A stretch of DNA of 64,000 nt from Psychromonas ossibalaenae ATCC BAA-1528 (GTDB lineage: Bacteria > Pseudomonadota > Gammaproteobacteria > Enterobacterales > Psychromonadaceae). The notes under the pieces were generated by a model. That model had not been told where the DNA came from. It was given only the letters and a program-made list of their open reading frames with translations, and ran no database searches. Positions within the stretch are counted from its first letter, which is position 1, and every line of letters starts with the position of its first letter. Of this stretch, positions 11,752 to 64,000 are shown piece after piece. The stretch spans positions 1 through 64,000 of the forward strand of contig NZ_KB906985.1 in NCBI RefSeq assembly GCF_000381745.1. Direction: 5' to 3'. Made by a program: the position numbers and the translations under genes.

Positions 11752-12207
11752 TTATTGATATGTAAGGTCGTTGAACTTTAGCCAGCCTGATTTTTTCGAT
11801 TCGTCAGCAAGCAGGTGAGTTCCTATAATCAGTCCACCTTTATAGTTCCACCGATACACTCCGTAAAACTCCAGTGACTCCCCAATCTTTAAGTCCGGAA
11901 CAGCTTGACCTGCCTCGATATTGTGCTTAATAATCAGCTTTCTACCGGAGCTCAAACGAAGCAGTATCTGCTGAGCAGCAAAAGGTTTGTCCTGATTTTT
12001 TAATATTTTAATAATTCTACCGACACTATGAACCTGCTGACCGCCGCGCTGCTGCTTATAAAGAAACTCAATGTGGTCCACTCCTTGTATAAGTTTGTCC
12101 ATCTGCACGTCGTCATCATTGTAAAGTGCGTTTAACTCATCACTTTCATTTGAGAAACAGGCCGATAAAAGCGCCACCAAGGATAAAATCAGGACTGTTC
12201 TCGACAT
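11752..12207 (-). CDS. Small lipoprotein, DUF3465-like
   Basis: A 151-aa protein with a lipoprotein signal ending in the lipobox LLSAC (Cys17). The mature part resembles DUF3465 proteins, small OB-like domains with a YRWNYKGGLI segment and a following His (GTH). That family assignment is from memory and only moderately sure. No function is known. It begins 31 bp after gspN in the same direction, so it may be the last gene of the secretion operon, but its phylogenetic link to Gsp is untested. Confidence 0.72.
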   Translation of the reverse strand: MSRTVLILSLVALLSACFSNESDELNALYNDDDVQMDKLIQGVDHIEFLYKQQRGGQQVHSVGRIIKILKNQDKPFAAQQILLRLSSGRKLIIKHNIEAGQAVPDLKIGESLEFYGVYRWNYKGGLIIGTHLLADESKKSGWLKFNDLTYQ

Positions 12208-12238
12208 TGACTTTTCCCTCAGAGAATAAAAAACACAA

Positions 12239-12988
12239 TTACAGCTTGCCGTTAAATTTTAAGATAGTCGCACCAGAAGAATCTTTTCCGCCAATCCATG
12301 AAAGTCCCTGCTTAAATGTCGGGTTAAGCTTATTAGTTGCTTTAATTAAGCCGTTCAGCTGGTATGCCTGATGCTCTTTAAGCAGTGCATTTGCCGTTGT
12401 ATGAAGCTGCTCTGACTGTTGTTTTAAATCAGCGCTTATCTGCCCCTTATCACACCCCAAATCAATATCTACCGATGCTAAATCAATTTTACCCATATCA
12501 CTGTTAATCTCTGCATCCTGCCAGCTGATACGCCCGTCAAGTTCCTGGCAATATGGTTCCCCCTGCGAGCCCTGTTTTACCTGCAGCGTAATATCACCAG
12601 TGGCTTTTATCGGTACAGGCAGCTTGATGTATGAAAGGATCTCTGAAGCACTCGAGTCTATCAGTAAGTTTTCTACCGCTAAGCCGGAAAAGCCAGCTAA
12701 AACAGAACCTTTACCTGACATCTCTGTATTACCATTATTAAACTTTATATCTAGCTTCAACTGCAGGCTAAACAAAGCAGACCAGTCAATTTTCCAGGAG
12801 AACTTTTTCAGCTGGTATTTGTTATAGCTGACCTGGGATGCTTTTCCGTCCCACAAAGACCCCGACGGGTTACTAACTTTTACTCCCGCCTGTGCAGGAA
12901 TAAATCCCGTCACCATTGACGCAGGTAGCGTTATCAGTAAAGAAATAATGTATAACAGAAAAAAAGCTGAAATAATTTTAATTTTCAT
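12239..12988 (-). CDS. gspN: Type II secretion protein GspN
   Basis: Last canonical gene of the secretion cluster, a 249-aa protein with one N-terminal membrane segment (FFLLYIISLLITL) and a periplasmic domain. GspN is not essential in several systems, and a role linking inner and outer membrane parts is proposed. Features such as FTLPASMVTG-like start and conserved GSLWDGKA near residue 42 are typical. It follows gspM by 24 bp. Confidence 0.92.
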   Translation of the reverse strand: MKIKIISAFFLLYIISLLITLPASMVTGFIPAQAGVKVSNPSGSLWDGKASQVSYNKYQLKKFSWKIDWSALFSLQLKLDIKFNNGNTEMSGKGSVLAGFSGLAVENLLIDSSASEILSYIKLPVPIKATGDITLQVKQGSQGEPYCQELDGRISWQDAEINSDMGKIDLASVDIDLGCDKGQISADLKQQSEQLHTTANALLKEHQAYQLNGLIKATNKLNPTFKQGLSWIGGKDSSGATILKFNGKL

Positions 12989-13012
12989 GAAGATTGAATC
13001 TCTTTGCAGGAT

Positions 13013-13495
13013 CTAGTGCCCAAGTAATAAGCGATTAATTTTTATGTAACCTGCTTTATCTGTCCTTGATAAATCAGAGTTAATAACTGAAACTGAATAC
13101 TGATTGCTTAACACTGTTAACCAGTTTACAAAGCGGTTAAATTCAACATCATTCACCGAAACTTCGATTCTTCCTTTTCTATCCACAATACGCGAGAAAC
13201 TAATTCCCTGCTTCTTGGCACTGCGAGTAACAATTTGTGTTAAGTTTAAACGGTTGCCGTTTTTTTTATTCTCTGCAGCCCCCGCTTTGCGTAATACAGC
13301 GGCTTTATCTTCGACCCAGGATAATGTCTGCTCTGCCCTGATCAGCTGCTTTTTATTATTATCAAGCTGTGCCGTCAGCGGTTTCCACGCTCCCCAGTAA
13401 ATAACCGCCAGCAATAAAAAAACACCTGTTAATGAAAAAAGCTTCTGCTCTCTTTCAGAAATACTCTGCCACCAGGCTTTAAACTGCTCAACCAT
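13013..13495 (-). CDS. gspM: Type II secretion protein GspM
   Basis: Bitopic inner-membrane protein of 160 aa that stabilises GspL. The cytoplasmic N-terminus (WWQSISEREQKLF) is diagnostic, followed by one membrane helix (about residues 20-38) and a periplasmic ferredoxin-like domain. Its ATG overlaps the gspL stop by one base (TAATG), implying coupled translation. Confidence 0.93.
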   Translation of the reverse strand: MVEQFKAWWQSISEREQKLFSLTGVFLLLAVIYWGAWKPLTAQLDNNKKQLIRAEQTLSWVEDKAAVLRKAGAAENKKNGNRLNLTQIVTRSAKKQGISFSRIVDRKGRIEVSVNDVEFNRFVNWLTVLSNQYSVSVINSDLSRTDKAGYIKINRLLLGH

Positions 13496-14706
13496 TATTT
13501 CTTCCTTATTGTCAGCATACCGCTAACTCGATTCTTATTATTTGTCAGAGCCCCCTGCTGCACTGTGTACTCCTGCGGCAGTGAAGCTGAAAATTTCTCA
13601 AAAGCAGGGAAATTTTTACCACTGGCTAAAATCTGTATCTCCTGCTTTCTACTGTCAAATTTTATGCTCTGCGGCTGGAGCTCTGAATTATTATCAAATG
13701 CAGGTGCCAGCTCATTCAGCATAGGCAGAAAACCAGAGTCAGCCTCGCCGCTGTCTAAATTTTTTAACATCGTATTCAGTTTTTTCTTAATACGCGCATA
13801 TCTTAATTTACTTTCTGCCGGAAATGCTTTGCTGTAAACCAGTTCAGTCCGCTGTTTAGCCAGCTCCGTTTTTTTCAATACCTGTTCATTTTTAACATAA
13901 ATATTAAGCATAAAAACCAACATTAAAACAGCGACCACAACGCCAGGGACTCGCCATTTATCAAAGTTCTTATTACTTTCTGACTGTACTTTAAATTCAC
14001 CGTTGAGCAGATTAAATTTATTACCTTTAACCCCGTCGCTTAATAATGCCATCGGCAGGACCGGCTCCGCATTTAGCCACTCTCCAGAATGCTTTTCAAC
14101 GGCTGTACTATGGCTTTCAATAACTTGAGACGGCAGATCGGTAAGTTTGCTCTGCAGGATAGACTCAAGCATAAGCTCATCACAACTCCAGGCAATCAGA
14201 GAGCTTTCTCGAATTAACCACTGTTTATCAAGCTGTACTGCCTGCCAGCTGCCGTTATCTGAAAACGGTAGTGCTAACCCTTCCGGGATAAACTGCTCGG
14301 CTTTTATCTGCGCATTTTCCAACCAGCTTAACCAGTTAATCATTTTAGATTGTTCGCAGACGGCAATATGGATCAGATCCTTCTCTTTTGCTAAAACCGT
14401 AAAATGTAGTTTTTCTACATCAGAGGCTAATTCCTCTTCAACCAGGTAGGGTAACCCCTGCTGCATCTGCCGGGTAAATACACCGTTAATCGCAACGGGT
14501 TTAATGCACACATCAACCCCCGGCAGCAGACACACAACAGAACGCTGCAGCGCTTTATCTGTTAGTAAATCTAACTGCTCTGCATTATCAACTTCACCTG
14601 ATGCAATAATTTCATTCTCATCATCAGACCAGATAAGCCAATGGTTCTTCTGCGAAGCTTCACTCGCTAAGCGAATTATTAATCGTTCAGTCACCACACT
14701 CTCCAT
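13495..14706 (-). CDS. gspL: Type II secretion protein GspL
   Basis: Inner-membrane platform protein of 403 aa that recruits the ATPase GspE. The cytoplasmic actin-like part occupies about residues 1-245. It is followed by one membrane helix (VVVAVLMLVFMLNIYV, near 255-270) and a periplasmic domain. The stop overlaps gspM. A 39-bp gap separates it from gspK, one of the few non-overlapping junctions in the operon. Confidence 0.95.
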   Translation of the reverse strand: MESVVTERLIIRLASEASQKNHWLIWSDDENEIIASGEVDNAEQLDLLTDKALQRSVVCLLPGVDVCIKPVAINGVFTRQMQQGLPYLVEEELASDVEKLHFTVLAKEKDLIHIAVCEQSKMINWLSWLENAQIKAEQFIPEGLALPFSDNGSWQAVQLDKQWLIRESSLIAWSCDELMLESILQSKLTDLPSQVIESHSTAVEKHSGEWLNAEPVLPMALLSDGVKGNKFNLLNGEFKVQSESNKNFDKWRVPGVVVAVLMLVFMLNIYVKNEQVLKKTELAKQRTELVYSKAFPAESKLRYARIKKKLNTMLKNLDSGEADSGFLPMLNELAPAFDNNSELQPQSIKFDSRKQEIQILASGKNFPAFEKFSASLPQEYTVQQGALTNNKNRVSGMLTIRKK

Positions 14707-14745
14707 TTACCACCAAGCGGCTCACCCTTTTTTGTAACATTAAAC

Positions 14746-15732
14746 TCATCTAACTCCACCAGACTGGTAACGAATTACCTCTGCTTTTTTTGAAACAATA
14801 GTAAATAACAGCTTTATTGCCAGCCAACGCTCTTCAAACTGGACTACCCCGTCCAGTTGAAAAAACTCGCTGCTGACATTCAACTGCCCTTTTAACTCCG
14901 CAGATATCACTAAGCCGCTAAATAAACTTTCTGCTAAGAATTCATCCACATTACTCCAGCCGCTTGTCGGCCGGTCTACAAGCAGTGAATGAAAATCACT
15001 GATAGAAATATCATGATATTTTTTAAACAGGGCATGTAAAATCTCTGCCTGTTCAGTACTTACGGTATTAACATTTATTTTTTGATCCTTTGCAGGGATC
15101 GCACATAAATACGGCTCGATACGGGCATAGACATTTTGGCTAACCCCCTGAACGGCACGCAGCTCACTAATATCAACCATCAGATTATTGGCGGCTAGAT
15201 GCGGTACTGATCGAGCCTGATAAAAGCGATCTTCCGCACCAGTTCCCGAACCTGAACTGTCGTTTTGATCAATCCAGTCTCGTGTTGACTCAGCAATAAC
15301 CTCTGCGCCGTAATCATCAATCTCCAGTGCTACCAGCAGATCCTGAAACTGCGTTATTGGAGTCGCGCGATCTCCGTTTTCACTGTCAGCCACTGCAAGA
15401 GCATTGACATTAAAACAGCTTCTTAAATCTTTAAATTCCCCCGCCATAAGGCCGTTATCAAGGGGAAAAACCATATCAGGGGTTGCCCAGGTCTGATCTA
15501 GACTGACCACTTCACTATCAGCAAAGTCTTCATTCAGGGTTTTAATGCCTAAATCTATACTGGACTGTCCGTACCAGTAAACTTTTTGTGAGAAAGTTAA
15601 ACCTTCTGTACGTTTTAAACCTAAGGTTAAACGCCCGGTCATTGTTGCAGCAATGGTAACCATAATCGCCAAAATCATTAATACAGTTATTAAAGCGATA
15701 CCACGTTGTTTTTTATTCACTGCCAAAGCCAT
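14746..15732 (-). CDS. gspK: Type II secretion minor pseudopilin GspK
   Basis: Largest minor pseudopilin (328 aa), thought to cap the pseudopilus tip with GspI and GspJ. The prepilin leader ends KKQRG before IALITVLMILAIMVTIAATM. As usual for GspK, the helix starts with Ile-Ala and lacks the Glu5 of other pseudopilins. The large periplasmic domain contains acidic stretches compatible with calcium binding. Its ATG overlaps the gspJ stop (TAATG). Confidence 0.95.
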   Translation of the reverse strand: MALAVNKKQRGIALITVLMILAIMVTIAATMTGRLTLGLKRTEGLTFSQKVYWYGQSSIDLGIKTLNEDFADSEVVSLDQTWATPDMVFPLDNGLMAGEFKDLRSCFNVNALAVADSENGDRATPITQFQDLLVALEIDDYGAEVIAESTRDWIDQNDSSGSGTGAEDRFYQARSVPHLAANNLMVDISELRAVQGVSQNVYARIEPYLCAIPAKDQKINVNTVSTEQAEILHALFKKYHDISISDFHSLLVDRPTSGWSNVDEFLAESLFSGLVISAELKGQLNVSSEFFQLDGVVQFEERWLAIKLLFTIVSKKAEVIRYQSGGVR

Positions 15733-16367
15733 TATTGAAGCACCTCACCAGCAGAAATTAAAAATACCCGCCTCAATTCTGAAAAATGCTCGCTGGTTAT
15801 ATTTATTTCAATACCTTCAGGTAAGCTTTTAGGACTATCCCAGGTATCCTGCCAGCCATTATTCCAAAAACGAAAAGTTAACTCTGTCACGTCTTCTAAT
15901 AGCACCTGCATTTCCGGCTCCTGTCCAACCACAATATCAGGATAAAGAAAATACAAGCGCTGTAACTGCCCTTCTTTAATCAGATAACGTACCCGCACAA
16001 TCTCTGAACGAGGCAGCAGTCCTAACGGATTGGTCCAGCCGAGGCGGTTAAACTCAATGCCTTGATCATCCGACTCAAATAGTTCCTTATCAACCCTTAA
16101 AGCACGAAAATTTTCCGTTTCCAGACCGTCTTCTCGCGATGTACGCGCTACAATTTGGGTAAAATCCTGCTCAATAATCAGCATTGCACGCTGCAGTTCC
16201 GTTAGGCGTTCACTGTGCTTTTTACTTATTTCCCCGCTCTGCAATACTCCCTGAAGTATTTGATAAGCAACTAAACTCAATAGCGAAAAAATAGAAATCG
16301 CAACTAATATCTCGAGTAAGGTAAATCCTTTGCTGTGCACCTTAGGTGCGAAATTACGGCTTAGCAA
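15732..16367 (-). CDS. gspJ: Type II secretion minor pseudopilin GspJ
   Basis: Minor pseudopilin with the type IV prepilin motif SKG before FTLLEILVAISIFSLL. No ATG lies close to the leader. I chose TTG at 16367 (211 aa) because AGGA stands six bases before it. A GTG at 16340 would leave a five-residue leader and is the alternative. Either start overlaps or abuts the end of gspI. The open frame extends further upstream inside gspI, but those codons are out-of-frame gspI sequence. Confidence 0.9.
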   Translation of the reverse strand: MLSRNFAPKVHSKGFTLLEILVAISIFSLLSLVAYQILQGVLQSGEISKKHSERLTELQRAMLIIEQDFTQIVARTSREDGLETENFRALRVDKELFESDDQGIEFNRLGWTNPLGLLPRSEIVRVRYLIKEGQLQRLYFLYPDIVVGQEPEMQVLLEDVTELTFRFWNNGWQDTWDSPKSLPEGIEINITSEHFSELRRVFLISAGEVLQ

Positions 16368-16740
16368 TGTAAGTCCTAATGTAGGACAATGCCCTACCTT
16401 CTTTTTTATCACTAACTTCAATATCCAGCGCTTTAAAAGTGCTGTCACCCGTTGCAACTCCCTGGTAGCGCCAGTACCAGGTCTTGCCGGCAAACTCTAG
16501 ATCGTCATTTCGCCAGCTTCCGTCCGGCCACTGTTTTTCCAGCTTCAGCTCAGCTAATTTATTACTGGCAATCCATAACGCAAAGGTCTTATCCTGCAGA
16601 TAGGCCTGATTATTCAGGGCGGCTGAGGCGGCATTCATAACCGCTAAACCAGAAACCCCTAAAATAACCAGCGCTAGCATTACTTCAAGCAGGGTCATAC
16701 CTTTTTGTTTTATTGAATTATCGCCTTGTGTTGTTTTCAT
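16354..16740 (-). CDS. gspI: Type II secretion minor pseudopilin GspI
   Basis: Minor pseudopilin of 128 aa. Leader KQKG precedes MTLLEVMLALVILGVSGLAV, with Met at position +1 and Glu at +5, normal for GspI. Together with GspJ and GspK it forms the tip complex of the pseudopilus. The start overlaps the gspH stop (ATGA). Confidence 0.95.
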   Translation of the reverse strand: MKTTQGDNSIKQKGMTLLEVMLALVILGVSGLAVMNAASAALNNQAYLQDKTFALWIASNKLAELKLEKQWPDGSWRNDDLEFAGKTWYWRYQGVATGDSTFKALDIEVSDKKEGRALSYIRTYIAKP

Positions 16741-17330
16741 TCTTCAATCAACTCTGGGAATGTAATAACGCCGCTCATATCAACAGAAAGCTTAACAACA
16801 TCTTCTTCCCTATCACTGCCGTCAATAGAAAACACCAGAGAAAATGGTGTTACTTCACCACTCGCCATAATATAAACCTGCGGATCTAGACTGAGCAGAT
16901 TATCATCACCATCAATTTCTACGCGATCTTCAGCATTGATAAAATCGTCCTGCTTATCACTGTCAATCTCATCCCACACTGAGCCTAACAGCTGATGCTC
17001 AATGCGCATCGATTCAGGCAGTTCAACTTTAGCAGTGAACAGCTCATCAGGAACCGGCAGCCATTTTCTGGTATCGTGATCATACCAGGCGAACTGGTAA
17101 TTATTTTTATCAAAAACCAGGCCTAACTCTTTACCGGAAATCAGGGCTTCATCTTCAGCAAACTGTAAAACAGTACTAAAACGCTGTGCCTGCCAGTCCA
17201 AACTTCTATCTGATGATAAGTTGTCCGGCAGGGTCATAACCACGGCGACTGACACCATGCCGATCAGTAAAAATACCAGCATAATTTCAAGCAGTGTAAA
17301 ACCGGCCTGGCGCCGATGGTTAATTAACAT
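16737..17330 (-). CDS. gspH: Type II secretion minor pseudopilin GspH
   Basis: Minor pseudopilin of 197 aa. Leader RRQAG precedes FTLLEIMLVFLLIGMVSVAV, with Glu5. The ATG at 17330 is preferred. An in-frame TTG five codons upstream is also open, and neither has a clear ribosome site. It follows gspG by about 30 bp and overlaps gspI by four bases. Confidence 0.94.
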   Translation of the reverse strand: MLINHRRQAGFTLLEIMLVFLLIGMVSVAVVMTLPDNLSSDRSLDWQAQRFSTVLQFAEDEALISGKELGLVFDKNNYQFAWYDHDTRKWLPVPDELFTAKVELPESMRIEHQLLGSVWDEIDSDKQDDFINAEDRVEIDGDDNLLSLDPQVYIMASGEVTPFSLVFSIDGSDREEDVVKLSVDMSGVITFPELIEE

Positions 17331-17361
17331 TCGTTTAGTAATCAATCTAATTTACAGCAGT

Positions 17362-17820
17362 TTAATATTCGTCATCTTTACCATCAAGATTCCAGTTACC
17401 TATATCATCATCACTGCCTTCTTCGCCGTCCGGACCAACAGACAGCACATCAATCTTACTATGTTCGCCAGGACTGTTTAATACATATTCATTACCCCAC
17501 GGATCTTCTGGAAGACGTTTAATGTAACCATCTTCACGATAATTACGCGGCTCCGGCGACCCGCTCGGCTCACTGACCAGTGCTTCTAAGCCCTGATCCG
17601 TACTCGGGTAAGAGCCGTTATCTAATTTATACATATCTAACGCATTTTCTAATGCAATAATATCTGATACTACTTTCTGGCGATCGGCTTTGTCTTTATT
17701 ACCCATTAAGTTAGGTACAACCATAGAGGCAAGTACACCTAAAATAACGATAACCACCATGATTTCGAGCAAGGTAAAACCTTTCTGCTTGCTGCTGTGC
17801 TTGATACTGCTGTTTTTCAT
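17362..17820 (-). CDS. gspG: Type II secretion major pseudopilin GspG
   Basis: Major subunit of the pseudopilus (152 aa). Leader KQKG precedes FTLLEIMVVIVILGVLASMV with Glu5. The C-terminal loop is rich in Asp (DVLSVGPDGEEGSDDD), the calcium-binding site known in GspG. A 120-bp gap on the gspF side holds a small hairpin and probably the signals that let this subunit be made in excess. Confidence 0.97.
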   Translation of the reverse strand: MKNSSIKHSSKQKGFTLLEIMVVIVILGVLASMVVPNLMGNKDKADRQKVVSDIIALENALDMYKLDNGSYPSTDQGLEALVSEPSGSPEPRNYREDGYIKRLPEDPWGNEYVLNSPGEHSKIDVLSVGPDGEEGSDDDIGNWNLDGKDDEY

Positions 17821-17852
17821 GAAATACCCTTTTAATTTTTGTTGTCAAAATA

Positions 17853-17940: not shown

Positions 17941-19155
17941 TTAACCTGCAACCATATTGTTAAGCTGAAGAATCGGCTCTAGGATTGCTACCACAATAAA
18001 TAACACGGCTCCTGCCATGGAAATAACCAAAGCAGGCTCAAAAATACCTAGTGCAATAGTGACCTGTGACGAAAATTGTTTGTCCTGATTATCCGCACAG
18101 CGCTCCAGCATATTTCCAAGCTCTCCGCTGCGTTCACCACTGGCGATCATATGCAGCATCATAGGCGGAAACTGTTTGGTACTTTCTAAAGATCGCCCTA
18201 AACTGGCTCCCTCACGAACACGATCCGTCGCTTCACCAACCTGCTGACGCATGTATAGATTACTCAATACCTGCCCGGCAATAGACATCGCCTCCAATAA
18301 TGGTACCGCACTGCTGTTTAAAATACTCAATGTACGTGCAAATCTTGCAGTATTAAGATCATTAGCAACACGACCGACCACAGCTACCTTAAGCAGATAC
18401 TGGTCAAAGCGCAACTGGTTACTTTCTTTTTTAAGGTACTGTTTTACAAAAAAGAAGAAGGCAATAATAAACATCAGAAGATAGATACCATAATCACGAA
18501 GCGCGTCACTGGAAGCGATTAGAAACTGAGTAGTACCGGGCAGATCCGCCCCCATATGTTCGAACTGTCCGACAACTTGGGGAACAACTGAAGTCAGCAG
18601 AATAGTAACCACTGAAATAGCCACTAAGGTAAGCACTATCGGATAGATCATCGCCTGCATCATTTTGCTTTTCATTTCCTGACGCTGCTCAGCGTAATCC
18701 GCCAGTCTGTCTAATACTTTATCCAGATGTCCGGACTTCTCACCAGCGGCCACCATGGCACAGAACAGATTATCAAAAATAAGCGGAAAAGCGCGCATAC
18801 TGTCGGCAAGACTATGCCCTTCAAGAACACCGCTTCGCACCGCAACAAGCATGGCTTTTATTTTAGGTTTATCACACTGCTCAACAACAGCCTGTAAACA
18901 CTCTTCAATCGGGATGGCCGATGCAACCAAAGTTGACAGCTGACGTGTAACTAATGCCAGATCCGCTGTATTAATTTTACTGCTTAATAAACCTGCACCG
19001 CTTTTGGATGCTTTAGCAGCAACAGCTTCAACCTCTATCGGTGTTAAACCGGAAGCGCGCAGCTGCTGACGCAGCTGACGGGCAGAATCAGCTTCTAACG
19101 TACCTTTCTTCTGCTTACCCTGAGCATCAATTGCTTTATAAAAAAACGTCGCCAC
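17941..19155 (-). CDS. gspF: Type II secretion inner-membrane protein GspF
   Basis: Polytopic inner-membrane platform protein (404 aa). It has two T2SSF repeats, each with a cytoplasmic helical bundle (SALPIEECLQAV-like region near residue 80, SSAVPLLEAM near 285), and three membrane segments. The start is GTG at 19155 (GTG GCG ACG, giving MATFFYK), one base after the gspE stop. The family usually begins MATFxYxA, supporting this start. Confidence 0.97.
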   Translation of the reverse strand: MATFFYKAIDAQGKQKKGTLEADSARQLRQQLRASGLTPIEVEAVAAKASKSGAGLLSSKINTADLALVTRQLSTLVASAIPIEECLQAVVEQCDKPKIKAMLVAVRSGVLEGHSLADSMRAFPLIFDNLFCAMVAAGEKSGHLDKVLDRLADYAEQRQEMKSKMMQAMIYPIVLTLVAISVVTILLTSVVPQVVGQFEHMGADLPGTTQFLIASSDALRDYGIYLLMFIIAFFFFVKQYLKKESNQLRFDQYLLKVAVVGRVANDLNTARFARTLSILNSSAVPLLEAMSIAGQVLSNLYMRQQVGEATDRVREGASLGRSLESTKQFPPMMLHMIASGERSGELGNMLERCADNQDKQFSSQVTIALGIFEPALVISMAGAVLFIVVAILEPILQLNNMVAG

Positions 19156-19156
19156 A

Positions 19157-20689
19157 CTAATCCTCTCTGCTTACGCGTAAGATCTCTTCTAAAGTCGTTT
19201 TTCCAGCAAGCACTTTCGCTAGCCCGTCATCTCGAATACTTGGGGTACGCTCACGAATCAGCTTTTCAACAGCCTGTTCACCCGCACCGGTATGGATCAG
19301 CTCACGAACCTGATCATCAACCATAAACAGTTCATGAATACCAGTTCGTCCTTTGTAGCCACTGTTATTGCAGTTAGAACATCCAACGGCACGATAGATA
19401 ACAGCGTTTTCAGCTGCAGCTAAACCTAAAATTTGCTTCTCTTTTTCGGTCGGCGTATGTGCCTCTTTACATTTTGGACATAATCGACGTACCAGGCGCT
19501 GTGCTAAAACACCTAACAAGCTGGAAGACAGAAGGAAAGGCTCTACGCCCATATCACGTAAACGCGTCACCGCGCCAACCGCGGTATTGGTATGCAGAGT
19601 AGATAATACCAGGTGACCGGTTAAACTGGCCTGCACGGCAATCTGGGCTGTTTCTAAATCTCGGATCTCACCAATCATAACTACATCAGGATCCTGACGC
19701 AGAATAGCACGCAGCCCGCGGGCAAAAGTCATATCAACTTTACTGTTTACCTGCGTTTGACCAATCCCGTCAATCGCATACTCGATAGGATCTTCAACTG
19801 TCAGAATATTACGATCTTTAGAGTTTATCTCTAATAAGCCGGCATAAAGCGTGGTACTTTTACCTGAACCTGTCGGCCCGGTAACCAGAATAATACCGTG
19901 GGGTTTATGCACCAGATCACTCATAATATGGTGATTCTGATCAGTCATACCCAGCGTATTCAGATCCAGCTTAATGGCGTTTTTATCCAAAAGACGTAAA
20001 ACAACACGTTCGCCATGACTAGACGGCATAGTTGAAACACGTACATCAACAGCACGCCCACCGATACGTAGTGAAATACGGCCGTCCTGCGGCACACGCT
20101 TTTCAGCGATATCCAGCTTCGCCATAACCTTGATGCGCGACACTAATAATGCAGCCAGCTTACGCTGCGGTTTCAGTATCTCACGTAATACACCATCAAT
20201 ACGGAAACGAATAATCAATGAATTTTCAAAGGTTTCGATATGAATATCAGAAGCTTCTTCTTTAATTGCCTCGCCTAACATAGCATTGATCAGTTTAATA
20301 ATCGGTGCATCATCTTCAGCTTCTAATAAATCTTCATTACCCGGCAGCTCTTCTGCAAGCGTAAAGAAATCATCGCTGCCGATATCTTCCATCAACTGCT
20401 GTGCTTCTGAAGATGACGACTGATAAGCAATCGCAACCAGGTTGTCAAAACGTTCTTTGTCAACCTGGTTTAAAGTAAACGAATGACCGATAACCCGGCG
20501 CGCTTCAAGCAGCAGCTCTGCAGCAGGAAGGCTCTTATAACAAAGCTCGGTCAGCTCTCCCTCGTGAAAAACAACCATTTCATGTTTTTTTGAAAACGAA
20601 AAAGGCAGTTGTCCGCGCGGTGTAACTTCAATGAGTTCCGGTTCAGTTAGTGATTCAGGCGGCAGCCCAGGCTGTTCAAGTACCGTCAT
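19157..20689 (-). CDS. gspE: Type II secretion ATPase GspE
   Basis: Cytoplasmic hexameric ATPase that powers pseudopilus assembly (510 aa). An N-terminal GspL-binding domain is followed by Walker [11 protein letters not shown] near residue 273, the Asp box (EDPIEY), Walker B ([10 protein letters not shown]), and a zinc-binding pair CPKC / CSNC near residues 404 and 437. The start overlaps the gspD stop (TAATG). Confidence 0.98.
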
Positions 20690-23692: not shown

Positions 23693-24108
23693 AAATAGTA
23701 CCTTGTTGAATTTCAAATTATCAGCATGTCGAATGCACTACTTTAGTAGTATGCTGTAAATTAACATTAAGGCTTTAGCTAAGCCAGTTCACTTCGATTT
23801 GTTTTTGTAAAATAATAATAAAAATACAAACAGTATTCTACTGAGCGCTTAATATTTACTGCTTAATTTTCAATCATCAGCCTGCCTAATATTTACAGCA
23901 TGCAGATAAAATAGGCGAGGATGCTACCCCACCTGGCTTCAGGCGACAACAAACTAACCGCAATAATGAGATCCAGTAAAGTTAATAAGCTTAATTTTTC
24001 TTAAATAAAGTATTCGTGGTGTTAATTTTAGCTTACTATCATAAAAAAGGAGTTAGGGGCAATATGAATTTGCTATACTGACTCTTCCAGTAACAAAAGG
24101 CTGAAAAA
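23693..24108. other. Divergent spacer gspC / hslR
   Basis: Non-coding stretch holding the promoters of the gsp operon (leftward) and hslR (rightward). The only clear structure is the hairpin at 23722-23756. An AAAGG ribosome site for hslR lies at its right end. I did not see an obvious activator site. Confidence 0.6.
23722..23756 (-). promoter_or_regulatory. Leader hairpin before gspC
   Basis: Two nested perfect stems: CAGCAT (23722-23727) with ATGCTG (23751-23756), and ACTACT (23737-23742) with AGTAGT (23745-23750). No U run follows, so a terminator is unlikely. It lies about 30 bp upstream of the preferred gspC GTG and could bind a protein or affect translation of the first gene of the operon. 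Confidence 0.4.
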
Positions 24109-54841: not shown

Positions 54842-54855
54842 TGTAAACGTAAACA
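54842..54855. promoter_or_regulatory. LacI-type palindrome near the first pullulanase promoter
   Basis: TGTAAACGTAAACA. Its reverse complement TGTTTACGTTTACA shares the ACGTTTACA half with the two sites on the other side of the spacer. Confidence 0.6.
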
Positions 54856-55670: not shown

Positions 55671-55684
55671 TGTATACGTTTACA
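55671..55684. promoter_or_regulatory. LacI-type palindrome upstream of the second pullulanase gene, distal
   Basis: TGTATACGTTTACA, one base from the palindrome TGTAAACGTTTACA typical of LacI-family operators. Confidence 0.65.
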
Positions 55685-55723: not shown

Positions 55724-55737
55724 TGTATACGTTTACC
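55724..55737. promoter_or_regulatory. LacI-type palindrome upstream of the second pullulanase gene, proximal
   Basis: TGTATACGTTTACC, 53 bp (about five helical turns) from the distal copy and identical to it over 13 bases. The spacing would allow looping or cooperative binding. Confidence 0.65.
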
Positions 55738-55958: not shown

Positions 55959-58900
55959 ATGAACATCAAATACATGAAGTTACCATTGGCAGCCGCTGTT
56001 AGTTTAGCCCTGAGTGCCTGTAATGGTAGTGACAGCAGTGACCCAGTACCAACACCAGACCCAACACCAACACCAGTCCCAGCACCAGTCCCAACACCAG
56101 AAACAACTCCGTTAAACGGTAAAGTAATTGATGGTTATATTAGCGGTGCAACTGTCTTTTTAGATAAAAACCGTAACTCAGTATTAGATGACGGAGAACC
56201 ATCCGCTCTTTCAGATGGAGAAGGTGCTTATAGCCTGCCGCTGACTGAAGCTGACATTCTCGCATTACCAACAAGCCCTATTGCTGTGCTTGTTGGTGCG
56301 GGTGCTAAAGATATCGACACTGGCGAAGAGTTTACTGAAGATAATAATCTGCTATTAACCACGCCTCCTATTTTAGACTTTGAGCCAGGACAAGCTGCGA
56401 ATTTTTCCCAGGCTATCACCCCATTCACCACACAATTGTATAATGAAGTAAAAGATACTCTAGAATTAGTCGTTACAGGTGAATTAAGTGCAGGTGCATT
56501 AACATTGGCTGTAGACACAGCTAAATCAACGGTATTGAAGGATACCGCTGAGAAATTAGGAATTGAGACAGATAAACTCGAAGATCTGTTATTTACTGAT
56601 TTCCTTGCTCCAGCAGGAGAGGCTAAATTAGAACTGGCCGAACTTGAAAAGATTGCTGACTTAGCGGTGAGTGAAACCGATAATCTACAGGAAAGCCAAC
56701 AATTAGAAGATGAACTTGCAGGAGACCTAAAAGATAATCAGAAAGTAACTGCAAGCATTAATGAGTACTCTTTTATTGAATGGCATACAGGGAAAACTCT
56801 TCTTATTAAAGAGATCTCTACAAAAACAACAACAACTGCCGACAATGGCGATAAACTGATTGAACGGAAGGCAACAAAATACCGTCTCAATGCTGACGGC
56901 ACGCTAATGCAGGTTGCAGGTGAACCATTAATTTATGAAATTGTCTCTGATACAACAAACGAAAAATCAGATGGTACTTTTGAAACAGTAGTTAAATATG
57001 AGATAGATAAAAATGGTGATAATAAGCGCCTATTTAAAGGCCAGTCTTACCGACGAGGCACCTGGACTGCAACAAGTAGAGAATTTACTGAATATTTTGA
57101 TGAATCTGCGCCAAGTGTAGAACTACCGGAAGTAACATGGGATGGCGATCGCAGCTATCAAGGCAGTGATATTAAGACTGCTGTATTAGCAGAAGATTAT
57201 ACTGATATTGACTTTATCCAGCACAAAACTGAAAGTAAGGTAAACAAAGACGGTAAAACAATATCGACTTTAGTTTTCAGTCAGTTCACTCCTAAAGATG
57301 GAGCATACAATCTAGAACAAGCCAATTATGCTGAAACACGCATCGATACCCACAGCGCAACCGGTGTTTTACACGAAGTTAAAAAAGACTGGGATGCCGA
57401 TGGGTCTATCAATGAGTACATTGCTGATGAAGTACTGACTGATGGTACGACGATCCAAACAACGACTAAACCTATCTGGCAAAATGCTCAGAAAAGCGAC
57501 AATTGGCAAGAGTATGCTGATTACAACTTCACAGGAAAACCTTTAAGTAATTTCTGGTTAGAGCAGACCATCACCAACAAAAAAGTTGACGGCTTAGATG
57601 TTGTTATATCTCAAGGGGAGCGCTATCTACTCGATTCTTCCACAAACACAGCGAAACAAGACGGTGAGGGTAATAAAATCCAGTTTAGTACCTGGCTTAG
57701 TACTACAACTCAACGCACAACAGAATTAAGTGTTGAACAGGTAAAATGGACACATACTCATCAAGATGATTCCCTATTTAATTCCGCCGAAGAAAACTTT
57801 ACTGTGGATGCTGATGATCTAGGGCAAAAAGTGGCCTATTCCGTGAAGTATGCCAATGATATCTGGCTGACTTGGGATTTCCCTGAGTGGGGAGGACAAA
57901 ATGTCAGCAACTTGTTAAAAGTGGTTGATGCTCAGTTAGCAGAAAATGAAAATGATTATAGTGCAGTAGATATTCGCGCACTGATGGTAGACGGTTCAAC
58001 AGAAACACCAGATCAAGATTGGCTCCTGCCAACATCAAGTTTCATTGAGGATGCTCAAGGTAACGTGCGCACCTGGTATATCGTAACCAATACTTTTGAT
58101 GGTGAACTTAAGCTGCATGAGACAACACTGCCAAATCTTAATGCAGATTGGGAATTAATATTTATCCCGGGCGGGGCAATAACACATGTACCTGACGGCT
58201 TTAATTTTGAGAATTGGAACAACACAACTCAAAATGTAAACATGCCGCCAATTACAGAGGTGGACACTGAAAAAGGAAGCTTTAGTTTTGCACCAGGTTT
58301 CGGTTGGAATCCTGAATACCCTTTCCACATGTATCTTGATAAAAGTGAAGCCGAGGCTAAGCTTGCACAGTTAAGTACACCAGAAGACGGAACTGTTAAG
58401 GCGCAAGATAACCAGGCGGTTATCTATGCAATGACCGATGCGGAAAACCGTGCGGACTGGACTCTGCACGTATGGAATAATGATCAATGTGACGCATTAG
58501 ACGGAGAGAATATTGACGGTTTTGCAGTTTGGGGCGAAGGCGTCAAAATGACTGGTGAGGATGAAAATGGTGTTTACTGGGTCTTACCGCTGCTAAGCCA
58601 GGAAGCTGATGACTGTGTAAACTTTATTGTTCGTGATGGTGAAGGTCAGTCTACAGATTTAAAACTTAAGTTTGCTGACATTGCCGATCGCCAGGCTTTT
58701 GTGTCCAGTGATTTCTCTACAATTCTAGACAGCGCTTCGGATACTCCGCCAGTTGCATTAGAAGGCTTAAAAGGTGCGTTAATTGATGCAGCAACTATTG
58801 CCTGGAATGTCGGTAACGCGGCTTCTTATGAAGCTCATTACCTGGTAGATGGTGGGTTTGAGATTAACGGCACAACGGGTGAAGTTGTTTCTACTTCTAC

Positions 58901-61900
58901 TCAAGAGTTCGCTCTTACCAGCAAAGATATGCCTGAAGGCGTAGCTAAGCGTTATGAAAATTATAAAGCGTTTGCTTTTGAACTGCCAGACGGTGTCACG
59001 CTAGATACTTTACTTCAAGGTCAGCTGGTTGTTACAGCTAAAAATGCTGAAGGTAGAATCATTGATGCAACAGGCATGCAGTTAGCTCCTGGGTTAGATG
59101 CCGTTTACGCAACGGGTGAGACTGGTGCGCAAAATGAAACAATGGGTGCTGTAGTTAACGGCTCTGATGCAACATTTAACTTATGGGCGCCAACAGCTAA
59201 AAACGTTTCACTTTACCTTTATGATGCTGACTTAGCGCAGGTAGGTGATGCCGTTACTATGACGCGTAAAGAGAATGGTACTTGGGAAGCGATTGATGTT
59301 GCAGATGCGCTTGGTAAATATTACCGCTATGAAGTAAAGGTATACCATGCCGCACTGGATAGTGTTGAAACACTACAGGTTACTGACCCATACTCACTTA
59401 GCTTATCAACTAATAGTAAATACTCTCAAGTAGTTGACTTATCAATAGAAGCTAAGCCGGCAGGTTGGGATGAGCAGGTTATTCCAACAGTTAATAACCC
59501 GGAAGAGCAGGTTATCTATGAAACGCATCTGCGTGATCTGAGTTCTGCACCTGGTGACGGCGGCAGCGATGCACTTGATGGGAAATACACGGCAATTACA
59601 GAAACTGAACGTGAAAGTATTAAGCAGCTGGCTTCTCTGGCTGAAAATGGCTTGAACACCATTCACCTTCTGAACTTATTTGATATTGCTACAGTAAATG
59701 AAGATCCTGAAAAACGTGTAGAGTTAAGCGATACAGTTGCAAAACTTTGCGGCCTGAACACAGGTGCTGCCGTTTGTGATGATGGAGTTAACGATTCAAC
59801 GATACGTGAAGTGCTTGAAAGTTATGACTCAGAATCAAGCGACGCACAAGCGTTAATGAATGATTTACGCATGTTTGACAGCTTTAACTGGGGTTATGAC
59901 CCGTTCCATTACACAACACCTGAAGGCAGCTATGCAACTGATGCCGAAGGTACTGCGCGTATTGAAGAATACCGTACTCTAATTATGGAACTTCATAACA
60001 TGGGTTACCGCGTAGTAATGGATGTGGTTTATAACCATACTAACTCTGCAGGTACAGATGACAAATCCGTACTAGATAAAATTGTCCCTGGATATTACCA
60101 GCGTTTAAATGCATCAGGCTCTGTAGAAAATTCAACTTGTTGTTCAAATACGGCAACAGAAAATGTCATGATGGGTAAATTAATGACAGATTCACTGGTG
60201 ACCTGGGCACAAGAGTACAAGATTGATGGATTCCGTTTTGACTTAATGGGACATCAACCGAAGCAGTTAATGCTTGATTCACTTGCGGCAGTTAAAGTAG
60301 TCGATGCGGATACTTACTTCTACGGTGAAGGCTGGAACTTTGGTGAAGTACAAAATGATGCACTGTTTGTACAGGCAACTCAGGCTAATATGGCTGGTAC
60401 TGAAATAGGTACTTACTCCGATCGTCTGCGTGATGCAGTGCGCGGCGGCGGTCCGTTTGACGGTGGTGATGCATTACGTGCAAACCAAGGTTTTGCTACT
60501 GCAGGTATCTGGAATGAGATGCAGGAAGATGAAGATGCATCCGTTGCTAAGCTAAGAAAAGACGGCGATATCATTCGTTTAGGTATGGCGGGTAACTTAG
60601 CCAAGTTTATATTACTGGATCAAGCTGGTAATACTAAACGTGGTCAAGATATCGATTACAACGGTCAGAATGCAGGTTACACAGTAGATCCGCAGGAGAA
60701 TGTCTCTTACGTGTCTAAGCATGATAACCAGACATTATGGGATAACAACATGTACAAAGCGGCGACAGATGCAACTTCTGCACAACGCGCTCAAATGCAG
60801 ATCCTTGCATTAAGTACTAACATGTTGGGTCAGGGTATTCCTTTCATCCATATGGGTTCTGAACTATTACGTTCTAAATCTATGCAGCGCGACAGCTACG
60901 ATTCTGGTGACTGGTATAATATCGTTAACTACGATAAAACGAGTAATAACTGGAATGTTGGTCTACCTCGTGAAGATAAAGATGGTTCTAACTGGCCGTT
61001 AATCACTAAAATCATTGCTGATACAAACGCAGCCCCAACAGCGGAAGACATCGCCTGGACAGATGCTCGTTTTAAAGAGCTATTAAAAATTCGTACGAGT
61101 TCTCCACTGTTCAGTCTTACAACTGAAGCTGAAGTTAAGGCACGTGTTGACTTCCAAAACACCGGTACTGATTCAATTGCTGGTGTGATTGTAATGAGCA
61201 TTGATGATGGTACTGGTGTTACTGATTTAGATCCTGCAGTTGATGCGATTGTTGCTGTGATTAATGCAACTAATGAAGATCAGGTTATCCCTGTGACAGA
61301 TGCAGCTGGTTTTGCATTACATAGCGCGTTAGTTGATGGAACAGCAACTTTTGCCGATGGTAAATTTACCGTTCCGGCATTAACAACGGCAGTATTTGTT
61401 AAAGCTCAAGGTGATGCACAAGGTACTGGTCTAGCAGTTGATGATAGTACTAAAGACTTAAGCTCTATCCCTCCATTTGGTGATGATATTCCTCATATTC
61501 GTGGTGACATGAATAATTGGGGTGATGCTGATGCAATGAAATTCACTGCTGCTGGTGTTTACAGTATGACCATGACTCTAGAAGCTGGTACTTACGGCTT
61601 TAAAGTAGCAGATCCAACTTGGGGCGCGATTAATTACGGCGCTTCCGGTGCATTGGTATTGGGCGAAGTTCTAGCATTGGACGGCGGAGATAATATCTCG
61701 CTTACATTAGCTGCTGATTCAGTTGTAACTTTTAAGTTTGATGCAGGCGATAAAGACGCTGCAACACTTACTGTGACAGCTGAAGAAGTTAAAAGCTGTT
61801 CAGTACTAGAAGACAGTACGGAAACTGCACCATTAGAAACTGACCTTTATATTAAAGGTGAGCTAAATGGCTGGAGCGCTGTTCCTGAAAATCAGTTAAC

Positions 61901-62156
61901 TTACAAAGGTGATAATATTTACCAAGTTGTATTAACTGATACTGTAGTTAAGTCTGCTTTTAAAATTGCGAATGCAGACTGGAGTGTTGAATATGCGGTT
62001 CATGCAGCTTTAAGCTCTGATATAGAATATACAACTGGTACAGGCGATGGTAATGATTCAGTAGATTTAGCACAGGGTGATTGGAGCTTTATGTTAACCC
62101 TTGACGCTGAAGATAACAGCAAAGCGACTCTGTTAATCCAGGAGTGCAGCCAGTAG
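55959..62156 (+). CDS. Giant pullulanase-type lipoprotein with long N-terminal extension
   Basis: A 2065-aa paralogue of the neighbouring pullulanase. The lipobox is LALSAC (Cys21, followed by Asn), then a Pro-Thr linker. Residues about 52-170 look like a carboxypeptidase-regulatory/SdrB-like repeat (GKVIDGYISGATVFLDKN, then RNSVLDDGEP with Asp spacing of a calcium loop). Residues about 260-800 are Thr/Lys-rich beta-type sequence that I do not recognise. Homology to the neighbour begins near 815. Catalytic residues are Asp1428 (FRFDLMGHQ), Glu1457 (YGEGWNFGE) and Asp1589 (KHDNQT), with spacing identical to the neighbour. C-terminal modules end in ECSQ. No in-frame stop interrupts it. Surface alpha-glucan degradation is inferred. 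Confidence 0.93.
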   Translation: MNIKYMKLPLAAAVSLALSACNGSDSSDPVPTPDPTPTPVPAPVPTPETTPLNGKVIDGYISGATVFLDKNRNSVLDDGEPSALSDGEGAYSLPLTEADILALPTSPIAVLVGAGAKDIDTGEEFTEDNNLLLTTPPILDFEPGQAANFSQAITPFTTQLYNEVKDTLELVVTGELSAGALTLAVDTAKSTVLKDTAEKLGIETDKLEDLLFTDFLAPAGEAKLELAELEKIADLAVSETDNLQESQQLEDELAGDLKDNQKVTASINEYSFIEWHTGKTLLIKEISTKTTTTADNGDKLIERKATKYRLNADGTLMQVAGEPLIYEIVSDTTNEKSDGTFETVVKYEIDKNGDNKRLFKGQSYRRGTWTATSREFTEYFDESAPSVELPEVTWDGDRSYQGSDIKTAVLAEDYTDIDFIQHKTESKVNKDGKTISTLVFSQFTPKDGAYNLEQANYAETRIDTHSATGVLHEVKKDWDADGSINEYIADEVLTDGTTIQTTTKPIWQNAQKSDNWQEYADYNFTGKPLSNFWLEQTITNKKVDGLDVVISQGERYLLDSSTNTAKQDGEGNKIQFSTWLSTTTQRTTELSVEQVKWTHTHQDDSLFNSAEENFTVDADDLGQKVAYSVKYANDIWLTWDFPEWGGQNVSNLLKVVDAQLAENENDYSAVDIRALMVDGSTETPDQDWLLPTSSFIEDAQGNVRTWYIVTNTFDGELKLHETTLPNLNADWELIFIPGGAITHVPDGFNFENWNNTTQNVNMPPITEVDTEKGSFSFAPGFGWNPEYPFHMYLDKSEAEAKLAQLSTPEDGTVKAQDNQAVIYAMTDAENRADWTLHVWNNDQCDALDGENIDGFAVWGEGVKMTGEDENGVYWVLPLLSQEADDCVNFIVRDGEGQSTDLKLKFADIADRQAFVSSDFSTILDSASDTPPVALEGLKGALIDAATIAWNVGNAASYEAHYLVDGGFEINGTTGEVVSTSTQEFALTSKDMPEGVAKRYENYKAFAFELPDGVTLDTLLQGQLVVTAKNAEGRIIDATGMQLAPGLDAVYATGETGAQNETMGAVVNGSDATFNLWAPTAKNVSLYLYDADLAQVGDAVTMTRKENGTWEAIDVADALGKYYRYEVKVYHAALDSVETLQVTDPYSLSLSTNSKYSQVVDLSIEAKPAGWDEQVIPTVNNPEEQVIYETHLRDLSSAPGDGGSDALDGKYTAITETERESIKQLASLAENGLNTIHLLNLFDIATVNEDPEKRVELSDTVAKLCGLNTGAAVCDDGVNDSTIREVLESYDSESSDAQALMNDLRMFDSFNWGYDPFHYTTPEGSYATDAEGTARIEEYRTLIMELHNMGYRVVMDVVYNHTNSAGTDDKSVLDKIVPGYYQRLNASGSVENSTCCSNTATENVMMGKLMTDSLVTWAQEYKIDGFRFDLMGHQPKQLMLDSLAAVKVVDADTYFYGEGWNFGEVQNDALFVQATQANMAGTEIGTYSDRLRDAVRGGGPFDGGDALRANQGFATAGIWNEMQEDEDASVAKLRKDGDIIRLGMAGNLAKFILLDQAGNTKRGQDIDYNGQNAGYTVDPQENVSYVSKHDNQTLWDNNMYKAATDATSAQRAQMQILALSTNMLGQGIPFIHMGSELLRSKSMQRDSYDSGDWYNIVNYDKTSNNWNVGLPREDKDGSNWPLITKIIADTNAAPTAEDIAWTDARFKELLKIRTSSPLFSLTTEAEVKARVDFQNTGTDSIAGVIVMSIDDGTGVTDLDPAVDAIVAVINATNEDQVIPVTDAAGFALHSALVDGTATFADGKFTVPALTTAVFVKAQGDAQGTGLAVDDSTKDLSSIPPFGDDIPHIRGDMNNWGDADAMKFTAAGVYSMTMTLEAGTYGFKVADPTWGAINYGASGALVLGEVLALDGGDNISLTLAADSVVTFKFDAGDKDAATLTVTAEEVKSCSVLEDSTETAPLETDLYIKGELNGWSAVPENQLTYKGDNIYQVVLTDTVVKSAFKIANADWSVEYAVHAALSSDIEYTTGTGDGNDSVDLAQGDWSFMLTLDAEDNSKATLLIQECSQ

Positions 62157-62170
62157 TTGTTTACCTATAA

Positions 62171-62238
62171 GCAGAGGAACAGTTAGCCCTCTGCTTTAAT
62201 TGCATTATAAATAAAAACCGGGATTTCCCGGTTTTTTT
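62171..62238 (+). terminator. Double hairpin terminator of the second pullulanase gene
   Basis: AGCAGAGG / CCTCTGCT (62171-62196) is followed by AAACCGGGA / TCCCGGTTT (62216-62235) and a T7 run. Confidence 0.9.
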
Positions 62239-62667
62239 ATGCCTGTAAAATAGAGCTGTTTCCCATACATTATTGATCAATTATCGAATAGGAAAGATCA
62301 ACACGCCCTACCCAGAATTAAATTAATAGTGCATTTTTAACAGCAGTCAAATTCATGATAACGGGCAATGAATATTAAAAATACAAACAGCGCCGAATGA
62401 AGAAAAGTGCGACCTTATATCCTGCACTAGATTTTAAGCACCGTCTCCGTGAAGTTGGTAACCATCGTATTATTAATGTTTGCTATTTTGACTCTAGGAT
62501 ATAAGAACAAGACGTTGGACTGGACATGGTGTGTGGTTGAAGGCACAGTCTGAATTTGTTTCTTGAAGCGATTCTGAAATGCTATAAAAAATGCCTGTCA
62601 GCTCTTAACTGACAGGAATTTTAGCTAATAACTACAGCCTCTATACTAAATAGAGATAACAGCTGTT
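62239..62667. other. Spacer between the convergent second and third pullulanase genes
   Basis: About 430 bp without a convincing gene. It contains a 10-bp inverted repeat CTTATATCCT / AGGATATAAG (62414-62423 and 62496-62505) around an open stretch of 36 codons starting ATG near 62397. This could be debris of a mobile element or chance. The terminator of the third gene lies at its right end. Confidence 0.5.
62584..62617 (-). terminator. Terminator of the third pullulanase gene
   Basis: CCTGTCAG / CTGACAGG 8-bp perfect stem with a seven-base loop. On the minus strand a T-rich tail follows, 52 bp past the stop. Confidence 0.8.
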
Positions 62668-64000
62668 CTACAACTCTTTTGCAGAAACAGGCAGACCAGC
62701 ACCTTGTGATTTACCCTGTGTTTTTACAAATACTGCAGTTGTTAATGCCGGTACGGTGAACTTCCCATCTGCAAAATCAGCATTTTTTACAACTTGATCA
62801 ACAGAATTCTGCTGTATCGGATGCAGAGTAAAACCGCTTGCTCCCGTTACAGGCATAGTCTGATCTTCTTCTGTTGCATTAATCACGATCACAACTGCAT
62901 CGTAATTACTGTCCAGACTAGTCACTCCCGTACCGTCATCAATAGACATAACAACCACACCAGAAACCTGCTCTGTTCCTGTATTATGGAAACTCACACG
63001 CGCTATAATATCTGCAGCTGTTTCCAGATTAAATAACGGGCTGGTTGTTCGGATTTTCAATAGTTCTTGGAACTGGGAAGACGCCAGCTGAATCTGCTCT
63101 GCACTAGGTCTGGCTTCACTGTCCTTAATAACCTCTTTAATCACATCGTAGTTATCACCGTCTTTATCTTCACGCGGCAGACCAACATTCCAGTTATTAT
63201 GCAGATCCGTATTTTCCAGATCAAAATCTACCCGATTGTACCAGTCACCTGAATCATAACTGTCACGCTGCATCGACTTAGAACGCAGCAGCTCAGAGCC
63301 CATATGCAGGAACGGAACCCCTTGACCTAACAACACCGTACTTAGAGCTATATTATGCATACGCACACGATCAGCCGAAGTTGTACCCGCCTGGGTTTTG
63401 TACTGATTATTATCCCATAGAGTCTGGTTATCATGTTTAGAAGCATAGTTCAGAGTCTCCTGCGGCTGTTCAGCATAACCTGCATGCTGACCGTTATAAT
63501 CAATATCCTGACCGCGTTTAAGAGCACCTTTATAATCTACAAGCATGTAATCTTTCAGATTAGCGGCCATACCCAAACGTACTAAATCCGTCAGACGGTT
63601 CAGATCTTCAGTTTTATCACTGTCCGCAAAATCAGATCCCGCATTAGCAAAACCTTTGTTCTCACGTAAACCTTCACCACTGTCGAATGGACTGCCGCCG
63701 CGAACGGCATCACGCAGACGGTCACTGAAAGTACCTATTCCGGTACCCGCCATATTCCATTGAATTGCATTTTCACCACGCTTGCCGCTCTCTACTTCAC
63801 CGAAATTCCAGCCTTCACCATAAAAGTAAGTGCTTGGATTAACCTTTTGTACTGCCTCCAGTGCTTTTTCCATATTTGTTTTCATATGGTGCCCCATCAG
63901 ATCAAAACGGAAAGAATCAATCTTGTAGTCTTCAGCCCAGGTAACCAATGAATCAATCATCAATTTTTCCATCATAGTATGTTCAGAAGCCGTATTGTCA
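62668..64000 (-). CDS. Third pullulanase-type gene, 3' part (runs off window)
   Basis: C-terminal part of another paralogue, open to the right edge. The retained part has the Asp nucleophile (FRFDLMGHH), the acid Glu (YGEGWNFGE) and Asp (KHDNQT), then the post-barrel beta-domain. It ends at GAGLPVSAKEL, exactly where the other two continue into two more C-terminal modules, so this enzyme is naturally shorter at its C-terminus. A terminator follows, arguing against recent truncation. The coding frame continues beyond the window (DNTASEHTMM at the edge), so its N-terminus and localisation are unknown. Confidence 0.92.
   Translation of the reverse strand, partial: DNTASEHTMMEKLMIDSLVTWAEDYKIDSFRFDLMGHHMKTNMEKALEAVQKVNPSTYFYGEGWNFGEVESGKRGENAIQWNMAGTGIGTFSDRLRDAVRGGSPFDSGEGLRENKGFANAGSDFADSDKTEDLNRLTDLVRLGMAANLKDYMLVDYKGALKRGQDIDYNGQHAGYAEQPQETLNYASKHDNQTLWDNNQYKTQAGTTSADRVRMHNIALSTVLLGQGVPFLHMGSELLRSKSMQRDSYDSGDWYNRVDFDLENTDLHNNWNVGLPREDKDGDNYDVIKEVIKDSEARPSAEQIQLASSQFQELLKIRTTSPLFNLETAADIIARVSFHNTGTEQVSGVVVMSIDDGTGVTSLDSNYDAVVIVINATEEDQTMPVTGASGFTLHPIQQNSVDQVVKNADFADGKFTVPALTTAVFVKTQGKSQGAGLPVSAKEL

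Follow-up and report, generated by a model that had tools for sequence, protein, structure and literature searches.

Three predicted lipoprotein pullulanases of Psychromonas ossibalaenae as probable clients of a GspN-containing type II secretion machine

A stretch of 64,000 nucleotides from Psychromonas ossibalaenae ATCC BAA-1528 (the window; bases 1-64000 of an 88.7-kb contig, in a genome of 5.2 Mb) carries an operon for a type II secretion system (T2SS), gspC-N, and, 26.8 kb beyond gspC, the first of three genes for pullulanase-type enzymes, Pul1, Pul2 and Pul3. This locus raises the question of whether the enzymes are clients of the Gsp machine, and whether the nearness of the two gene groups tells anything about it. 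It is likely that Pul1-3 are PulA-type debranching enzymes exported via Sec, lipidation, GspN and GspD to the cell surface, and that the gsp operon is an old, general locus lying near them by coincidence. Surface lipoproteins of the PulA type are an already known kind of system; the part worth following is a link between gspN and the lipidation of such enzymes.

The enzymes, the operon and the sorting stretch

All three enzymes are of PulA type: against a TIGR02103 cut-off of 697.6 bits, Pul1 scores 1122, Pul2 1134 and Pul3 1232, and the proteins possess the N2, CBM48, Ins and C-terminal Pfam domains. The blocks FRFDLMGH, YGEGWNFGE and SKHDNQT, presumably catalytic, are invariant across the three proteins, and residues 25-1106 of Pul1 are collinear with Klebsiella PulA. 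An earlier note on this DNA had placed three pullulanase-type genes about 27 kb from the gsp operon, which the scores and the measured gap confirm. It had counted two of them as lipoproteins, a figure that must be corrected because Pul3, read to its start in the sequence adjoining the window end, has a lipobox too; thus, all three look like lipoproteins.

50562..54602, minus strand: Pul1, 1346 amino acids; lipobox LSGC followed by DGSSSND, Pro/Thr linker, PUD, N2, CBM48, GH13, X25, starch-binding tail
55959..62156, plus strand: Pul2, 2065 amino acids; lipobox LSAC followed by NGSDSSD, extension (residues 41-810), PulA-type enzyme, tail
62668..64000 in the window (C-terminal part; whole gene to contig position 65952), minus strand: Pul3, 1094 amino acids; lipobox LLGC followed by NDSSSND

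The secretion operon spans 12239-23716 on the minus strand and encodes 12 products. The full gspC-N set claimed in the earlier note was borne out, with ten of the 12 (GspC, D, E, F, G, H, I, J, K and L) over curated NCBIfam cut-offs. The gspC-to-gspM core is thus present in one operon, with 10 of its 11 products over cut-off; GspM matched a narrow exception model alone (54.2 bits vs a cut-off of 352) and fits by its position. GspN has no NCBIfam match and was recognised by PF01203 (183.5 bits, at C19:12266-12889).

12239..12988, minus strand: gspN, PF01203, 183.5 bits; T2SS part reported as lipoprotein carrier to the surface
13013..13495, minus strand: gspM, weakly recognised; exception model 54.2 bits (cut-off 352) and position
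13495..14706, minus strand: gspL, TIGR01709 over cut-off
14746..15732, minus strand: gspK, NF037980 over cut-off
15732..16367, minus strand: gspJ, TIGR01711 over cut-off
16354..16740, minus strand: gspI, TIGR01707 over cut-off
16737..17345, minus strand: gspH, TIGR01708 over cut-off
17362..17820, minus strand: gspG, TIGR01710 over cut-off
17941..19155, minus strand: gspF, TIGR02120 over cut-off
19157..20689, minus strand: gspE, TIGR02533 over cut-off
20689..22680, minus strand: gspD secretin, TIGR02517, 528.4 bits, over cut-off
22766..23716, minus strand: gspC, TIGR01713 over cut-off; PF11356

According to a 2025 report (PMC12802150), GspN of A. baumannii is required for surface delivery of lipoproteins and not of soluble clients, K. 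pneumoniae PulA requires PulN, and GspN clients carry a G/S- or N/D-rich stretch at positions P2'-P8'. All seven of these residues are G, S, N or D in each of Pul1, Pul2 and Pul3; three further lipoprotein amylases of the same genome have 5, 6 and 7 of 7, and seven other lipoproteins, a convenience sample, have 0 to 4. Pul1-3 combine two features of GspN-dependent T2SS lipoproteins, namely a lipobox with a G/S/N/D-rich P2'-P8' and a gspN gene in the genome. They resemble Klebsiella PulA in the collinear enzyme, in the lipobox followed by a Ser/Asn/Asp stretch (there C followed by DNSSSSS, L012) and in a T2SS with GspN. GspN-dependent lipoproteins of Acinetobacter (InvL and others; PMC12802150) are alike in the gspN gene of the operon and in the G/S- or N/D-rich stretch; InvL is an adhesin, whereas enzymes are concerned here, with a hybrid N/D/S stretch and a GspN dependence that is predicted from sequence.

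In the proposed route, Pul1-3 would cross the inner membrane by Sec and be lipidated at the lipobox cysteine. The G/S/N/D-rich stretch behind it would keep them off the Lol route, GspN would hand them to the Gsp machine, and the enzymes would pass GspD to the cell surface and stay anchored there. Together with further lipoprotein amylases, they would open alpha-1,6 branches in starch or glycogen. On this view, gsp would be a general, old locus that serves pullulanases from afar.

Co-occurrence with GspD and GspN, and the link to lipidation

Pullulanase, GspD and GspN were each searched over 394 genomes from 118 genera of the order, the genomes being identical wherever the three sets could be matched by name. 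The pullulanase family, called at E 1e-60, occurs in 135 genomes (134 over cut-off) and GspD in 273 (268 over cut-off); GspN, called at about E 1e-17 or better, was found in 247 (248 over cut-off, 281 at E 0.001). GspD is present in 133 of the 135 pullulanase-positive genomes vs 140 of the 259 others (Fisher 1.5e-24). Among GspD-positive genomes, gspN accompanies all 133 with pullulanase vs 114 of the 140 without it (p 1e-8, or 9e-8 without three weak GspD matches), and the contrast persists by genus (38/38 vs 21/30, p 3e-4). Sixty nearer relatives include 22 with pullulanase and 49 with GspD, all 22 among them; in a class-wide sample the family occurs in 8 of 370 genomes, too few for comparison. 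Relatives that keep the same enzyme in the absence of gsp, which the earlier note had named as evidence against its proposal, were looked for: the two pullulanase-positive exceptions (G596 and G694) lack GspD, as was confirmed, and GspN, and their pullulanase is a short lipoprotein form with C followed by AQQR and no sorting stretch, hence a different enzyme. In family f25, twelve GspD-positive genomes of genus g25 have neither gspN nor pullulanase, and all sampled pullulanase-positive genomes of g305 have gspN.

These counts suggest that anchored pullulanases go with the GspN part of the secretion machine, and the 394-genome comparison provides independent support for the 2025 report (PMC12802150). 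Pul1-3 are probable Gsp clients because a lipobox with a sorting stretch, a gspN gene in the operon and near-obligate co-occurrence with GspD and GspN come together. The earlier claim that the pullulanases are lipid-anchored Gsp clients is thus supported, whereas its use of the neighbourhood as evidence is not (see below).

The N-termini of pullulanases were read at 45 of 80 named loci (Gamma- and Betaproteobacteria), at 53 loci of further genomes, and in Pul1-3; ahead of the N2 domain, long forms have 110 residues or more and short forms fewer than 60. The extra domain of the long forms is PUD/CBM41, by Pfam evidence from the own genes only. The 64 lipidated long forms average 5.3 of 7 G/S/N/D residues, with G, N or D at P2' in 55, vs 2.35 of 7 in the 20 lipidated short forms, with G, N or D at P2' in 2 (Mann-Whitney 2e-8 for the G/S/N/D content). 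In this comparison L117, which reads MTAC followed by NGSSGGS, was scored 1/7 on the wrong cysteine, and L129 (LWGC followed by GSDSSEP) was counted as non-lipidated, being counted as lipidated in the gspN test below; the lipobox of L057 is doubtful, and contig ends cut the genes at L119 and L122. The short PulA-like lipoproteins (about 900-1000 amino acids; Alteromonadales-type, Xenorhabdus) thus share the catalytic family and the lipobox with Pul1-3 and differ in the region before N2 and in the stretch, and they also occur in genomes without GspD over cut-off (L036, L151, L152).

GspD lies over cut-off in 45 and GspN in 37 of 49 named genomes. All 62 gamma- and betaproteobacterial genomes examined with lipidated long forms have gspN. 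GspD-positive genomes also hold nine long forms that are non-lipidated; gspN is missing over cut-off for five of them (L029, L030, L047, which has a sub-cut-off match in its genome, L049 and L058) and present in four (L053, L136, L138, L150; Fisher 1e-5 vs lipidated). The test left out L013, for which GspD falls short of the cut-off, as well as four short non-lipidated forms from genomes with gspN (L024, L062, L068 and L145); duplicates between the named and the other sets are possible in its genome counts. Few of the cases are independent, since L029 and L058 have near-identical N-termini and L049 clusters with L138, which comes from a genome with gspN. The cleanest contrast occurs within one supported clade, between Stutzerimonas (non-lipidated, no gspN) and Marinobacter (lipidated, gspN present), the Marinobacter GspN matches reaching just 33 and 38 bits, over cut-off.

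From these data it can be tentatively proposed, as a possibility somewhat short of probable, that GspN is an evolutionary gate for the lipid anchoring of T2SS enzymes, long pullulanases of Gamma- and Betaproteobacteria being lipidated only with gspN, and loss of gspN and of the lipobox being coupled. If the rule holds, the presence of gspN, and not gene proximity, would predict in which bacteria type II secretion can put lipid-anchored enzymes on show at the surface. Among the papers listed by a limited literature search, none besides PMC12802150 dealt with a gspN-lipidation link, and those listed on Psychromonas pullulanase and on type II secretion in Succinivibrionaceae offered nothing relevant.

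Several points weigh against the proposed route and the gspN link. The co-occurrence statistics are uncorrected for phylogeny and genome size, and without the three weak-GspD genera the genus-level contrast shrinks, with gspN in 21 of 27 genera of the pullulanase-less group (p 0.0036). Long lipidated forms outside the Gamma- and Betaproteobacteria (L017, L023, L031) occur in genomes without a PF01203 match, a model that may miss distant GspN. At P2', Pul1 has D whereas the other two have N, and the host may follow Lol rules of its own. The sorting stretch is described as needed, not as sufficient, in PMC12802150, and the Caulobacter lipoprotein ElpS, encoded beside a T2SS, is reported to be surface-located in the absence of that system (PMC2996285).

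Gene distance and alternative explanations

The main alternative, an unlikely one, is that selection holds gsp and the pullulanases together for joint regulation or transfer, in a co-selected neighbourhood like that of Klebsiella. In its favour, the gap is similar in G023, the sister genome, at about 28 kb vs 26.8 kb here, in a region where all genes but the pullulanases are syntenic; at least 9 of the 135 pullulanase-positive genomes of the order have the pair within 50 kb, and in G703 a pullulanase lies 1.9 kb from gsp genes, a true adjacency. In addition, another family has a gsp-linked starch cluster: in G535 (family f3; L115-L117), positions 56773-91168 of the contig hold gspC-N and then, in the same orientation, genes for three large GH13-PKD proteins, a PKD protein and a pullulanase (C followed by NGSSGGS).

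The arrangement in P. ossibalaenae is of another kind. The Klebsiella pulA gene adjoins the secretion genes, as seen also in G703, whereas here three enzymes of separate ancestry lie 27 kb from a gsp operon that stands beside hslR-hslO-pckA; the locus was not classed as a Klebsiella-style pul locus because 26.8 kb and unrelated genes separate the enzymes from gsp. The intervening genes, as far as they are named, include none for secretion or alpha-glucans, except a lipoprotein hydrolase. The hslR-hslO pair adjoins gspC not only in the own genome (G000) and in G023 but also in the five genomes examined from two other families, f10 and f3, and no operator-like site of the kind found before the pullulanases lies within 400 bases before gspC.

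Within the genus, GspD occurs in 23 of 24 genomes, the exception being 51% complete, and pullulanase in 10. Among these ten, gsp and pullulanase lie within 29 kb in G000 and G023; in G022 a single contig carries both, with 2.3 Mb between pullulanase and gspD (1.3 Mb if the contig is circular), and in the remaining seven they are on different contigs. GspD of G022 is in two pieces with a stop (C1:3255918-3257835), either a broken gene or a sequencing error, in a genome with a lipidated long-form pullulanase. Of the 33 copies from 28 near-complete genomes in which one contig holds both, 3 fall within 50 kb (0.76 expected), all in one genus, and the distances do not differ from uniform (Kolmogorov-Smirnov p 0.26). 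The test, for which some genome sizes were rounded, omitted 12 near-complete genomes; these have the pair on different contigs or replicons, so that their inclusion would weaken nearness further. The proximity of gsp and pullulanases is thus probably due to chance, and the neighbourhood on which the earlier note had relied lends its client claim no support.

Export of Pul1-3 as surface lipoproteins by a route other than Gsp is quite unlikely. Other routes for surface lipoproteins exist, and ElpS is reported to reach the Caulobacter surface without the neighbouring T2SS (PMC2996285), but the collinear Klebsiella PulA requires T2SS and PulN (PMC12802150), and the family almost always occurs with GspD in the order (133 of 135). 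That Pul1-3 are ordinary outer-membrane lipoproteins facing the periplasm is very unlikely: short relatives without the sorting stretch do persist without GspD over cut-off, and neither Pul2 nor Pul3 has D at P2', but Pul1-3 belong to the long forms and carry the sorting stretch as well as Pro/Thr linkers and starch-binding modules.

Ancestry and putative control of the pullulanase genes

In a tree of 76 rows, built by a quick method, Pul2 falls with pullulanases from other species of its genus, Pul3 joins the two G023 copies, and Pul1 groups with genomes of family f20. A tandem duplication as the source of Pul1-3 was rejected, as the tree puts the enzymes on three family branches. Pul1 and Pul3 have leader and promoter in common, with 83% identity over the first 60 protein columns vs 49% overall. 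The G023 gene at the place of Pul1 (L104, C15:51067-55158) is a mosaic: its leader is 88% like Pul1 (first 60 columns), its body 84% like Pul3, and its tail, over about the last 140 columns, 82-91% like Pul2. The second G023 copy (56079-58955) lacks the domain before N2. Because of the common Pul1/Pul3 leader and the G023 mosaic, leaders, bodies and tails seem to have been exchanged within the locus; it is possible that the G023 mosaic is an assembly chimera. The locus would also illustrate a starch-degrading surface assembled from enzymes of separate ancestry with common leaders and promoters.

Each of the three pullulanases is preceded, at 235-288 bases, by a LacI-type palindrome, TGTAWACGTWTACA, with no more than one mismatch; Pul2 has two such sites. 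The sites in the window are:

54842..54855, minus strand: operator-like site before Pul1, LacI-type, 1 mismatch
55671..55684, plus strand: operator-like site before Pul2, LacI-type, 0 mismatches
55724..55737, plus strand: second operator-like site before Pul2, LacI-type, 1 mismatch

Operator-like sites were also found before two lipoprotein amylases and before genes tentatively named, from reading the sequence, as glgC and galE. The 400 bases before gspC, hslR, pckA, fruB and glpF contain none with up to two mismatches, and two sites, each with two mismatches, lie upstream of lexA. Genome-wide, the 13-base pattern with one mismatch gave 17 strand matches vs 7 for a reversed control. In Klebsiella, the pul enzyme and secretion genes are under common MalT control; in P. 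ossibalaenae the operator-like sites precede the three enzymes, and none was found in the 400 bases before gspC. An operator common to the genus was rejected: with up to two mismatches, none of five pullulanase promoters from other genomes of the genus and none of 19 others carries the site. The putative LacI-type control is lineage-specific, because the site is missing in all five pullulanases from other genomes of the genus. The Shewanella MalR maltodextrin regulon (PMC2996990) offers a parallel only: a LacI-type regulator is proposed for starch-enzyme genes in both cases, and it is named there, whereas here there are candidate sites.

The extension of Pul2 (about 770 residues, window 56079-58388) has no Pfam match. 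Relatives of it, many of them partial, were found in 47 of 178 genomes, and the fuller ones examined are stand-alone lipoproteins, five starting with C followed by GG and one with C followed by NS. A plasmid search gave partial matches in 6 records, and an AlphaFold2 model made without an alignment was uninformative, with a mean predicted local distance difference test score of 35.8. Just past the lipobox, residues 31-67 of Pul1 (window 54401-54512) gave a weak match to the NCBIfam SslE lipoprotein model (E 4e-4), which may be due to chance, given the low complexity of the linker. A fourth member of the family, on contig 46 (L088), falls in a fourth clade of the tree and is fused to GH13 and CBM20; the contig end cuts the gene, leaving its N-terminus unseen.

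Elsewhere in the window, a DUF3465 gene at 11752-12207, the point from which the earlier note counted its region, stands outside the gsp set, and a scan for RNA families at gathering score and for tRNAs found none. The TAP-like hydrolase between gsp and the pullulanases (42216-43706) may be a further T2SS lipoprotein, since its lipobox precedes the stretch NSSDSNT, with 6 of 7 G/S/N/D residues.

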